From Sideroxydans sp. (GTDB lineage: Bacteria > Pseudomonadota > Gammaproteobacteria > Burkholderiales > Gallionellaceae): DNA of 64,000 bases. The position numbers were made by a program, and so were the translations under genes. The DNA lies in the NCBI GenBank assembly GCA_027310665.1, contig DAIDAJ010000127.1, positions 1-64,000 of the forward strand, given 5' to 3'. The first letter of the stretch is position 1; each line of letters begins with the position of its first letter. The notes beneath the pieces are model-generated. The model was not told where the DNA came from and ran no database searches. It saw only the letters and a program-made list of their open reading frames with translations. Shown here piece after piece: positions 57,601-62,570 of the stretch.

Positions 57601-58649
57601 AAGTGGCGCGCCTCAACACCAGCGGCACGATCAATATCACGCGCGGCAAGACGCAGTTGTACGGCGAGAACGCGATCACGCTGCGCCGCATCTGGTCCGA
57701 GACAACGTACCAGCTTCAGAAACTGCGCGACAACCCGGCCTGCGCGCAACAGGAATACGACCGCACGCTGGATGCGAAAGACCCGGGCCTGAATGTGAAG
57801 CTGACCTACGATCCGAATGAGGACCCCGCTGCCGCACTCGGCACTCGGCACTCGGCTCTCGGTACCGTTCTTTCCCGTCCCAAAATGGCCATCCTGCGCG
57901 AGCAGGGCGTGAACGGCCACGTCGAGATGGCCGCCGCATTCGACCGCGCCGGTTTCACCGCCGTGGATGTGCATATGAGCGACATCATCAGCGGCCGCGT
58001 GACGCTGGCCGATTTCAAGGGCGTGGTGGCCTGCGGCGGTTTCTCCTACGGCGACGTGCTGGGCGCCGGTGAGGGCTGGGCGAAATCCATCCTGTTCAAC
58101 CCGAGGGCGCGCGACGAGTTCGAGGGATTCTTCAAAAGAAACGATACGTTCGCCGTGGGCGTGTGCAACGGCTGCCAGATGATGAGCAACCTGCACGAGA
58201 TCATCCCCGGCGCCGAGAACTGGGCGCACTTCGCGCGCAACCAGTCGGAACAGTTCGAGGCGCGCTTCGTGATGGTGGAAGTGCAGCAGACGCCGTCCAT
58301 CCTGTTCGACGGCATGGCCGGCAGCCGCATGCCCATCGTCGTGGCACACGGCGAGGGCTATGCAGACTTCGGCAACACCAAGCGCCTGCATGACGCACAA
58401 CCGCTGGTCACGCTGCGCTATGTCGATCACTACGGCAAACCGACGACGACCTATCCGCTCAACCCCAACGGCTCGCCGCAAGGCATCACCGGACTTACCA
58501 CGCCGGACGGGCGCTTCAGCATCATGATGCCGCACCCGGAGCGCGTGTTCCGTGCCGTGCAGAATTCCTGGTATCCGAAGGAGTGGCAGGAGAATGGGGC
58601 ATGGCTGCGCATGTTCCAGAATGCGAGGAAGTGGGTGGCGCAGAGTTGA
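54606..58649 (+). CDS. purL: Phosphoribosylformylglycinamidine synthase
   Basis: 1347 aa; [56 protein letters not shown]. Confidence 0.97.
55693..55809. repeat. In-frame palindromic repeat-like insertion in purL
   Basis: Purine-rich left arm GAAGGGGGAAGAGGGAAGGGATAAGGGT and pyrimidine right arm CTCCCTTCTCCCTTAAACCCTG; encodes ~36 residues not expected between QPWE and YGKP. Confidence 0.6.
57834..57861. repeat. 7-bp tandem repeat (GCACTCG x3 + GCTCTCG) inside purL
   Basis: gcactcg gcactcg gcactcg gctctcg read directly. Confidence 0.95.
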
Positions 58650-58687
58650 CATACCCATATTGGGTAGTAAGATGCCCGCTATGGGCA
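58646..58687 (+). promoter_or_regulatory. Promoter with two tandem 15-bp operators for the downstream HTH gene
   Basis: TTGACA (58646-58651), 16-bp spacer, TAAGAT (58668-58673); operators TACCC-N5-GGGTA (58652-58666) and TGCCC-N5-GGGCA (58673-58687). Confidence 0.6.
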
Positions 58688-59088
58688 TGAAAGCCAAAAC
58701 CTCCGCTGTGGTTCGGCACGTCAGTTTATCCGCTGCGTTGTTTTCCACTACGCAGCAACGCGTGCTGGGATTATTGTTTGGGCAACCGGAGCGCAGTTTT
58801 TTTGCCACCGAACTGATAGGGTTGTCCGGCGGTGGTTCCGGTGCGGTGCAGCGCGAGTTGAAGCGCCTGGACGAAAGCGGCCTGGTGACAGTCAGGCGCG
58901 TGGGAAACCAGAAGCACTACCAAGCGAACCCTCAATCGCCGATTTTTGCCGAACTTTGCGGCATCGTGCATAAGACACTGGGACTGGCCGAGCCGCTGCC
59001 TGCCCACATCCCCCCCACCGAAAAGGTCCGACACGAGAACAGCGCATGGCTGCGCATGTTCCGGAATGCAAAGAAATTGGTGGGATGA
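58687..59088 (+). CDS. Winged-helix HTH regulator with purL-derived C-terminus
   Basis: LFSTTQQRVLGLLFGQPERSFFATELIGLSGGGSGAVQRELKRLDESGLVTVRRVGNQKHY; C-term HENSAWLRMFRNAKKLVG. Other ATGs in frame at 58672 and 58681. Confidence 0.75.
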   Translation: MKAKTSAVVRHVSLSAALFSTTQQRVLGLLFGQPERSFFATELIGLSGGGSGAVQRELKRLDESGLVTVRRVGNQKHYQANPQSPIFAELCGIVHKTLGLAEPLPAHIPPTEKVRHENSAWLRMFRNAKKLVG

Positions 59089-59106: not shown

Positions 59107-59553
59107 TCATGCAGAGGGCTGCATGATCTCGACGAGCGCTGTGCGCAGGACTTCTGCCTTTACCGGTTTGTAAAGCAAGGGCAAGTTGGCCTCCTGAGCT
59201 GCCACATAGGTTTCCCTGGTCGTGTCGCCGGTGATCAGGAGAGCGGGGAGGTTGGCGCTATAGCGTTGCCGCAATGCGGCAATCGCATCAATGCCGTTGC
59301 TCGAATCGCTCAATCCAAAATCCGAAATGATCGCCGTCACGGGCTCCCGGTCGTGCTCCAGCATGCCCATGATCGCGTCTGTTGAATTGGCTGCGATGAC
59401 ATCGCAGCCCCAGCTTTGCAGAATGCTCTGCATGCCGACGCGGATGTCTTCTTCATTCTCTATGATGGCGATGCGTTGGCCGCGAGTATTGAATTCGGCC
59501 TGACCGCTTTCGGCCGAGGTTGTGTGAAAACCCAATTTCACCGCTTCCGCCAA
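59107..59553 (-). pseudogene. Receiver-domain fragment of an IS-disrupted hybrid histidine kinase (3' part)
   Basis: IAIIENEEDIRVGM...IISDFGLSD...LLITGD...LLYKPV; first 14 codons read out of the IS end and target duplication, with only TTG/GTG starts. Confidence 0.85.
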
Positions 59554-61211
59554 ACCATCTTTTCTTTGCCGAGCAGTTTATTCATATGACCCCGCTTTGC
59601 GCTGTAAAACTCGAACTGAGCATTCTGGGCGCCGCCTAGGGGACCCATGGGCCGTTAATAAAGCGCACAACCGCTCACGCGGCAATGACCCGCATCATTT
59701 TCAGCATTTCTGAAATGCCCAAAATATTCATGACACGCCTCAGGTTGTATGCAAGGACGTGCAAGCTCATTTCCGTGCTGACGTGCTCAAGCGTTTTCAT
59801 CAAGAAGTGCGCGGAACCCATCCGGAATTTTAGTGTTCCGAAGACATGCTCCACGGTGCACCGCCGTTGCTTCATTTTTTCCGGATTGTTGTCCAGGCGA
59901 TTTTGCATGGCATCCAGTACATCCTCATGCTCCCAGCGCCTTACACGCCGCTCTTTGCCGGTCGTACACAGCTCTTTGCGCGTGCATCTTTGGCAGCCTG
60001 CGGTGGTCCAGTAAGCGTTGAGTTTCATGCCATCTTCTATCGAGAAACCGTGATAGGTCAGTCGTTCTCCTGCCGGGCATTGATACTCGTTATCTTGCGC
60101 GATATAGATGAAATCACGTTTGTCATATCGCCCCAGAGCCCTGTTGTTGGATGTCATGGTTCTCGGCACAAAAGCAGTAATACCAGCCTGCTCGCACGCC
60201 AATATTTCCGGGCCCTTGTAGTACCCTCTGTCCGCAATGACTTCCAACGCCTCGCAGCCGAGTGCTTCCCGTGATTTCAATGCCATGTTGGAAAGCTGCG
60301 TACGGTCATGTCCAACATTGGTAACTTCATGCGCAACGATCAAGTGGTTCTGAGTATCAACTGCCGCTTGTACATTGTAGCCAACCATGCCAGTACCACG
60401 TCCGCTGGTTGCCATTGAGCGTGCGTCTGGATCGGTCAGGGATAATTGCTTATCCGGTTGCTGCTGCAAGAGAACCTCGGTTTCTTTGAGGCATTGCATG
60501 TGATCTTTGAGTTTTGCCAGCTTCTCCTTCAGTCGCTCCGCTGTCGCTTCGGTCTCGGTTGCCTGCGCTCTGTCTGCACTGTCCAGCGCATTCATGTAGC
60601 GCTCGATACTTTCATCGATCTGCTTCATCCGTTGTTCAAGTTTGTGCGGTGTAAAATTCTTGTCACGGTTGTTGACCGCTTTGAACTTGCTGCCATCAAC
60701 GGCAACGATGGCTTGGGTGAATAGGTTGAGTTGACGACACATTGAAACAAAGCGCCGACAAACATTACGAATGCCTTTGCCGTTGTCGCGGCGAAAGTCG
60801 GCGATAGTCTTGAAATCCGGCTTAAGACGTTCAGTGAGCCACATCAGTTCGACGTTTCGTTCCGCTTCACGTTCCAAGCGTCGGCTCGATTGAATGCGAT
60901 TCAGGTAGCCGTATATGTATATCTTCAAGAGCGTGGATGGATGATAGCCAGGCCGTCCGGTTACCGCTGGTGACATGCCCGAAAAACCAAGCTCGATCAG
61001 GTTCAGTTCATCGACAAATGCATCAACCACTCTGACCGGGTTGTCTTCGCCGATGTAATCATCGAGGCACTCCGGTAGCAAAGTAACTTGATTCCGCCCC
61101 TCGCCCTGAATGTATCGCTTCATCTGCTCGCCTCCGCCAATGTTCGTACATCAGCATTAACGCGCGATAGGAATTTTTCGTGCACAGGATGAGGTGTTTT
61201 CACACAACCTC
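59516..61211 (-). mobile_element. IS1182-family-like insertion sequence, 1,696 bp
   Basis: 16-bp perfect TIRs GAGGTTGTGTGAAAAC...GTTTTCACACAACCTC, flanking GGCC duplication (59512-59515 and 61212-61215), intact transposase. Confidence 0.9.
59675..61123 (-). CDS. IS1182-family-like DDE transposase
   Basis: 482 aa; MKRYIQGEGRNQVTLLPECLDDYIGEDNPVRVVDAFVDEL...GRPGYHPSTLLKIYIYGYLNRIQSSRRLE. Confidence 0.92.
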   Translation of the reverse strand: MKRYIQGEGRNQVTLLPECLDDYIGEDNPVRVVDAFVDELNLIELGFSGMSPAVTGRPGYHPSTLLKIYIYGYLNRIQSSRRLEREAERNVELMWLTERLKPDFKTIADFRRDNGKGIRNVCRRFVSMCRQLNLFTQAIVAVDGSKFKAVNNRDKNFTPHKLEQRMKQIDESIERYMNALDSADRAQATETEATAERLKEKLAKLKDHMQCLKETEVLLQQQPDKQLSLTDPDARSMATSGRGTGMVGYNVQAAVDTQNHLIVAHEVTNVGHDRTQLSNMALKSREALGCEALEVIADRGYYKGPEILACEQAGITAFVPRTMTSNNRALGRYDKRDFIYIAQDNEYQCPAGERLTYHGFSIEDGMKLNAYWTTAGCQRCTRKELCTTGKERRVRRWEHEDVLDAMQNRLDNNPEKMKQRRCTVEHVFGTLKFRMGSAHFLMKTLEHVSTEMSLHVLAYNLRRVMNILGISEMLKMMRVIAA

Positions 61212-62570
61212 GGCCCTGAACGGCAGTGTGCCTTCATTCATGAAATCCTGCGCCATCGGTACGGTGACGGCAAAACAGGAGCCGTTGCCGGGCCAGGACC
61301 GCAAGCTGATTCCATGTCCGAGCAGTTGTACGGTACGTTTGACGATCGCCAGCCCCAGCCCCAGTCCCTTTTGCCGGTCGCGTTCCTTGTTTCCGATCTG
61401 GTAGAACTCCCTGAAGATGGCCTCGTGCTGATGGGACGGGATGCCGATACCGGTATCGTGCACTTCAATCGACAGGATGTCGCGCTTGTGGCGGCACCCC
61501 ACCACGATTCGTCCGGAATCGGTATAGCGCAGTGCATTCGAAATCAGGTTGCGCAGGATCTGTCCCAGCAACACGGGATCGCTGTCGATCAGCGCCGAAC
61601 TGAACACGAAGGACAATTGAATGCCCTTGTTCTGTGCGACCGGCAAAAACTCGTTCTCCAGTTCCTTGAACAGTAGCTGCACGGCAAAAGTACAACGATT
61701 CGGCTTGACGATGCTGGCATCCAGCTTCGAGATATCCAGCAAGGTCATCAGCAGTCCGCTCAGGGAGTTTGCCGCCTGGTGCGCGCGCAGCACCATGCTC
61801 TGGCTCTGGCTGGACAACTGTCTGTCTGCGCCCAGCAAGTCGAGGAACAGTACCAGCGCGGACAGGGGCTGGCGCAGGTCATGGCTGGCGGAAGCCAGGA
61901 AGCGCGTCTTGTCCCTGCTGGCCTGTTCCACGAGGTCGCGCTGCTGTATCAACTCCTTGACCAGCAACTCATTCTGCAGACGCAGTTCCACCGCATGGGC
62001 AAAGATATGGTTTCTTTTGAAGCTCAGCCACAGCGTCATCGGGAGAAAGATCAGCAACAGGACAAAAAGGATCGTGTGCAGCCGGTCCCCCACCGTTGCC
62101 AGCCAGATGATCTGCGGAACGAGCGTGGCAATTGTAAACATGCGCGATGGCCAGACGTAGGAGAAGCCTTCCGAGACTGAAGACGCCGAAGAGACCGCGC
62201 TGACGGCCACGATGAGCAACTGATATTCGGGAGGCAGGGATGGCAACATCAAGGTAAAGCCTATCCCCCAGCCCAGTCCTGCCAGGGCTGAATACCAGGT
62301 TTGAAGTTTCCCCCATTGATCGGCGCTCCTGAGTTCGGGTGCGCGGTGATAGCGGCGGATGTAATAGCTGCGCATGATGGTCGCCAGATAGACCATCGCC
62401 AGCGGTGGCGCATATTTCCAGGGAGACACGAATTGGTAGACCGCGATCACGACCAGTGAGAAGACCACTGCACCAGCCAGATTCTGGATATCGGATTCAG
62501 CGTAAAAGGCCATGACCTGCTCGGCCCTGATCGCATCGATTTTTGATTCCTGCAGAAAATGTTCACTCAT
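61200..62570 (-). pseudogene. Membrane histidine kinase part (5' part) of the IS-disrupted hybrid kinase
   Basis: N-terminal TM segments, HisKA (FLASASHDLRQPLSALVLFLDLL), HATPase (DTGIGIPSHQHEAIFREFYQ...GLGLGLAIVKR); stop codon lies inside the IS end. Confidence 0.88.

Follow-up and report, generated by a model that had tools for sequence, protein, structure and literature searches.

A dyad-matched insertion of an IS1182-family element splits a hybrid histidine kinase gene in Sideroxydans sp.

The window analyzed here, a stretch of 64,000 nucleotides from a Sideroxydans draft genome, contains a complete IS1182-family insertion sequence of 1,696 bp (59516 to 61211), in which one transposase open reading frame (ORF) lies between terminal inverted repeats. 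The element is oriented on the minus strand, as is the hybrid histidine kinase gene that it splits. The two terminal repeats are perfect over 16 bp: the one at the downstream end with respect to the transposase (GAGGTTGTGTGAAAAC, 59516 to 59531, plus strand) is near-identical in related copies, and the one at the upstream end (61196 to 61211, minus strand) contains the TGA at which the kinase ORF now stops. When the flanking GGCC is counted, the inverted repeat grows to a perfect 20 bp (59512 to 59531 and 61196 to 61215). The transposase gene (59675 to 61123, minus strand) is intact, and its product of 482 amino acids scored 441.8 bits on the NCBIfam IS1182 profile (NF033551; cut-off, 270), over positions 4 to 487 of 488. 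Residues D143, D298, and E425, invariant in 79 to 80 related copies, are a candidate DDE catalytic triad judged by this conservation, several further acidic residues being likewise invariant. Taken as a whole, the element is supported by its terminal repeats, the transposase profile, the empty orthologous sites of relatives, and its being the sole copy in the assembly (see below).

On either side of the insertion sequence lies one piece of the interrupted gene. The truncated kinase fragment (61200 to 62570, minus strand; 456 amino acids) has a membrane N terminus and complete HisKA (residues 221 to 285) and HATPase_c (residues 331 to 440) domains according to Pfam; its ORF now ends in FRAEVV, where EVV is encoded by the insertion sequence and the stop is the TGA within the terminal repeat. 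The severed receiver-domain fragment (59107 to 59511, minus strand; Pfam Response_reg) belongs to a frame that extends without a stop from a TTG at 59553, within the insertion sequence, to 59107. Deleting 59512 to 61211 gives a single frame of 587 amino acids, in which NEGTLPFRA is joined to ESGQAEFNTRGQRIAIIENEED, that is, a hybrid histidine kinase with a membrane N terminus, a HisKA and HATPase_c core, and a receiver in one frame. This joined protein most resembles the C-terminal half of the NahK/ErcS' group, with NF041832 covering 369 of its 370 profile positions across the junction at 376.7 bits, compared to 277.1 and 92.2 bits for the separate pieces. Since these scores are under the curated cut-offs (376.7 versus 400 for NF041832 and 314.9 versus 1500 for NF041831, the NahK profile), we did not file the joined kinase as NahK/ErcS'. 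A first-pass annotation of the same DNA had proposed an IS1182-like element, placed its perfect 16-bp repeats at 59516 to 59531 and 61196 to 61211, restored a 587-residue membrane kinase-receiver by removing 59512 to 61211, and seen the kinase stop without its receiver at a TGA in the repeat; the family now stands above a curated cut-off, the coordinates are exact, and the restored frame and the premature stop were reproduced.

Elsewhere in the window, purL and the neighboring small HTH-regulator-like ORF (58552 to 59088, ending in SAWLRMFRNAKKLVG) have in common, at their 3' ends, a 52-bp stretch (58587 to 58638 and 59032 to 59083, ca. 80% identity, same reading). The same pair was also found between the joined window and L002 and L003. 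Judged by this similarity, a second copy of the purL tail seems to have been fused to the regulator ORF.

A search with the joined protein covered 61 genomes from the same genus, family, and order. In two members of the genus, the orthologue is uninterrupted, in one frame and with no stop, at 96% identity over residues 1 to 587 (587 of 587 amino acids) in G018 and 91% over residues 1 to 586 in G023. The joined DNA aligned with both in one piece, unbroken across the junction (94% identity over 2,000 bp in G018 and 88% over 1,944 bp in G023), so that colinearity of the locus extends to either side of the junction in the two relatives. Given that these relatives carry the gene uninterrupted, the in-frame reconstruction is not a product of chance. 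Dozens of remoter hybrid kinases (31 to 52% identity) also have the kinase and the receiver fused in one frame. Full-length homologues of the 587-residue sequence therefore exist, and the possibility raised earlier that relatives might encode kinase and receiver separately fails, because they have the fused form.

GGCC flanks the insertion sequence at both ends, with the left copy at 59512 to 59515 and the right copy at 61212 to 61215. As GGCC is palindromic, a part of the repeat and a target-site duplication look alike when only the window is considered. In both orthologues the 4-bp site is single, being GGCC in G023 and GGTC in G018 (plus strand of the window), and the junction codons read TTC AGG GCC GAA AGC in the window and in G023 and TTC AGG ACC GAA AGC in G018. 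The single copy in these empty sites, together with the GGTC, GACC, and GGCC flanks of related elements elsewhere, identifies the GGCC noted at first sight on both sides as a 4-bp target duplication. A 20-bp terminal repeat that includes GGCC, with no duplication, was ruled out by the same empty sites and by the GGTC and GACC flanks. Apart from the duplication, nothing was gained or lost at the insertion site compared to G018 and G023.

The event had also been called recent, and the absence of decay backs this view, with the split from G018 as the only reference point. With G023 as the outgroup, the lineage of the window has accumulated 3 nonsynonymous and 26 synonymous changes since that split in both pieces together (3 and 22 in the kinase, 0 and 4 in the receiver); an early loss of function in both pieces should have given ca. 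3 nonsynonymous changes per synonymous change. A simple Poisson bound, which is rough with counts this small, limited the part of the branch that evolved without constraint to at most 8% for a background omega of 0.02 to 0.08. This dating presumes that selection has acted on neither fragment since the insertion. The lack of decay means that either the insertion is recent relative to the G018 split (dS of ca. 0.2) or the pieces are still selected, and recency would be the simpler explanation than continued selection.

The host assembly (3.19 Mb in 127 contigs) contains one copy of the element. We found no element ends elsewhere in this assembly, even allowing two mismatches, and no further copies or short non-autonomous derivatives, the sole other match to the family being a 20-bit fragment below the cut-off; the element is also absent from G018 and G023. 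As the genome is a draft (127 contigs, 92.6% complete), extra copies may have been lost at contig breaks, or the population may be mixed. The closest copy (L052), in a Nitrosomonadales metagenome-assembled genome, has 95.4% DNA identity over 1,320 bp and is cut by a contig end, and the next closest (G063) has 77%. Among plasmids, the nearest named relative is an annotated ISPa7 copy, with ca. 66% DNA identity over the transposase gene. These comparisons would fit a recent horizontal arrival of the element.

The first-pass annotation had pointed to further copies flanked by 4-bp duplications in the same genome; there were none there, and such copies were found in other genomes. Among 84 distinct insertion sites of related elements, taken from genome contigs, order-level genomes, and plasmids, 73 had identical 4-bp flanks, and 65 of those 73 were GRYC (GGTC in 29, GGCC in 22, and GACC in 14), with ca. 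1 expected by chance. The flanking sequences form a dyad of ca. 28 bp around the duplication, which can be written as approximately GNC-N-GCNTTTS-GRYC followed by the mirror image of the first half. Reading inward, the half-site has G at -10 (85%), C at -8 (90%), G at -6 (78%), and C at -5 (67%), and near the center it prefers T at -4 and -2 and C or G at -1. In the window, the left arm of the dyad is CTGACCGCTTTC (59500 to 59511) and the right arm is CTGAACGGCAGT (61216 to 61227), the latter departing at one base from the GC preferred in the half-site.

We then scored the joined window with a target matrix (17.5 bits) derived from 50 sites, all from other genomes and with the window site left out. 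The actual site, CTGACCGCTTTC GGCC CTGAACGGCAGT, ranked first among 62,273 positions, with 20.5 bits, followed by the next position with 15.4. None of 500 control matrices with permuted arm columns ranked the actual site first. In third-order Markov sequence, 0.006 positions per 62 kb reached its score, a null that is too lenient given that 4 positions did so in 191 kb of real DNA around other IS1182 copies; the first rank, with its gap of 5 bits, is independent of the Markov figure. The orthologous sites scored lower (15.7 in G018 and 11.2 in G023), so that the high score of the window site comes partly from bases particular to this lineage. Copies held out from the matrix mostly agreed with it: plasmid copies scored 17 to 28 (L138, L139, L143, and L144) or 10 to 11 (L140 and L142), two others (L141 and L145) failing as whole sites because one side was another insertion sequence end or was rearranged, and most order-level copies scored above 10. 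The insertion site is not random: it is the best match in the window to the dyad preferred by the element. This gene rather than another was hit because its coding sequence contains a strong match to that dyad.

Some related elements showed variants of this arrangement. In one sub-branch (L026, L028, L030, and L032), CGGC was duplicated instead of GRYC within a similar dyad, as if the cut had shifted by one base. In the Polaromonas plasmid pPNAP05 (L142), a CAGC duplication sits in nearly perfect inverted arms, CTGACTGCAATG-CAGC-GATTGCAGTCAG, the arms being conserved while the center differs. An Aromatoleum plasmid (L082, 1246 to 4603) carries two complete related IS1182 copies that are arranged head to tail and separated by one 4-bp GGTC, and in a Variovorax plasmid (L141, 2648 to 2690), one GGCC forms the joint between a first and a second set of insertion sequence ends. 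These two arrangements could reflect targeting of the element's own end or a tandem-dimer intermediate.

Given that the targets are dyads and that hairpins are the insertion sites of IS1272 and TnSha1 (PMC5678879, PMC4923244), we considered whether the element recognizes structure, that is, hairpins or cruciforms as in IS1272, with the sequence pattern as a by-product. Both papers refer to the 2015 review by Siguier et al. as mentioning that some members of the IS1182 family target palindromes, and one of the two describes the review as giving no detailed data on it. However, the arms within sites were complementary at 5.14 of 12 positions, compared to 5.34 ± 0.18 when arms were shuffled between sites, and those of the window site were complementary at 4 of 12, where 3 are expected at random. 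The elements studied here also show a fixed sequence consensus and 4-bp duplications, neither of which IS1272 has. Hairpin targeting was rejected on the grounds that the arms show no covariation beyond column composition, and we regard it as unlikely. Because the arms do not covary, the target appears to be a sequence dyad rather than a hairpin, presumably read by a symmetric transposase complex.

Together, we consider it very probable that the locus records a dyad-guided IS1182 insertion into a hybrid kinase gene, in which GGCC was duplicated, the receiver was severed, and the phosphorelay was most likely lost. The element would have used staggered cuts with 4-bp overhangs to enter the gene of a membrane-bound hybrid histidine kinase, at a match within the coding sequence to the dyad that its transposase clade appears to prefer (half-site, ca. 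GNC-N-GCNTTTS; center, GRYC). The insertion would have duplicated GGCC and parted the kinase core from the C-terminal receiver. As the predicted products are now a receiver-less membrane kinase and a stranded receiver fragment, phosphorelay within the protein has most likely been lost, and a loss of signaling function is likely. The receiver could be produced only via readthrough and re-initiation. The host genome has at least 22 related hybrid-kinase matches among those listed, the nearest paralogue being 48% identical, and these many relatives may soften the loss of the split kinase.

The two fragments might instead form an established two-piece system, in which the kinase and a separately translated receiver are still made and working and the insertion sequence is a mere spacer. 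Such a system would agree with the complete HisKA and HATPase_c domains of the kinase fragment, with the receiver frame that is open into the insertion sequence and has a possible TTG start after an A/G-rich stretch, and with the lack of decay in either fragment, but recency explains this last point equally well and relatives carry the kinase and the receiver fused. Moreover, a sigma-70 consensus scan found no promoter-like site in 59400 to 61400, and the receiver would need readthrough of 482 transposase codons and of the weak terminator-like stem that follows them (59664 to 59681), all of which makes this reading very improbable. An assembly artefact, with the insertion sequence misplaced or the contig chimeric, is hardly credible: insertion sequences are a usual cause of misassembly, and the sole copy in this draft of 127 contigs is the one in the split kinase, but a single-copy element normally does not confuse assembly, both flanks form one colinear locus in G018 and G023, the exact 4-bp duplication is predicted by transposition and not by misjoining, and the site matches the target dyad of the element.

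The insertion is, as an event, an ordinary insertional gene disruption, and its added value lies in the target rule. The combination of empty orthologues, a duplication, and many related copies turns vague palindrome targeting by IS1182 elements into a specific and testable rule, which lets one say why the split kinase gene, and not another, was hit. If a transposase reads a 28-bp dyad, one could forecast its insertion sites from sequence. The interruption also indicates that one sensor kinase among many related hybrid kinases was lost recently, possibly at the level of the strain.

Compared to known systems, the joined protein has the kinase and receiver architecture of NahK/ErcS'-type hybrid histidine kinases (NF041831/NF041832), but it differs from them in its membrane-spanning N terminus and scores below their cut-offs. 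The element itself shares with ISPa7 the transposase family (NF033551), similar terminal repeats (CAGACCGTGTAAAAAC), and a GGCC 4-bp duplication in a similar dyad; by these sequence features, it falls in the same broad group, although the divergence is large enough for a separate element name. A preference for palindromic targets is also found in insertion sequences that target REP elements (e.g., ISPpu9; PMC1525189, PMC8450116); unlike in those, the target dyad here is no abundant repeat. In 11 genomes, its strict pattern was found 0 to 1 times each, no more commonly than a reversed control, and a REP-like genomic repeat as the target was rejected on this basis. In the window, matches to a relaxed pattern were at chance level (16 found versus 14.1 expected), and in the host genus, a looser pattern was moderately above the control, the matches being mostly recurrent, coding-like sequences.

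IS1272 of Staphylococcus, the best-studied member of the same transposase family, enters hairpins with no target duplication and no sequence consensus (PMC5678879, PMC4923244). IS1272 and TnSha1 resemble the element described here in this family and in their dyad-symmetric targets (PMC5678879, PMC4923244), but IS1272 replaces or trims the hairpin and leaves no duplication. Here, a 4-bp duplication is present, the empty sites lose nothing, the consensus is clear, with 17.5 bits, and the arms do not covary. In the literature searched, which did not extend to ISfinder, we found no published 4-bp target rule of such a form for IS1182. On balance, we favor sequence-specific dyad targeting (ca. 28 bp with a GRYC center, ca. 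17.5 bits) with a 4-bp stagger and few, predictable sites per genome as a property of the ISPa7-like branch of IS1182. If this is true, targeting by this branch differs in kind from that of the hairpin-targeting, duplication-free IS1272 within the same family.
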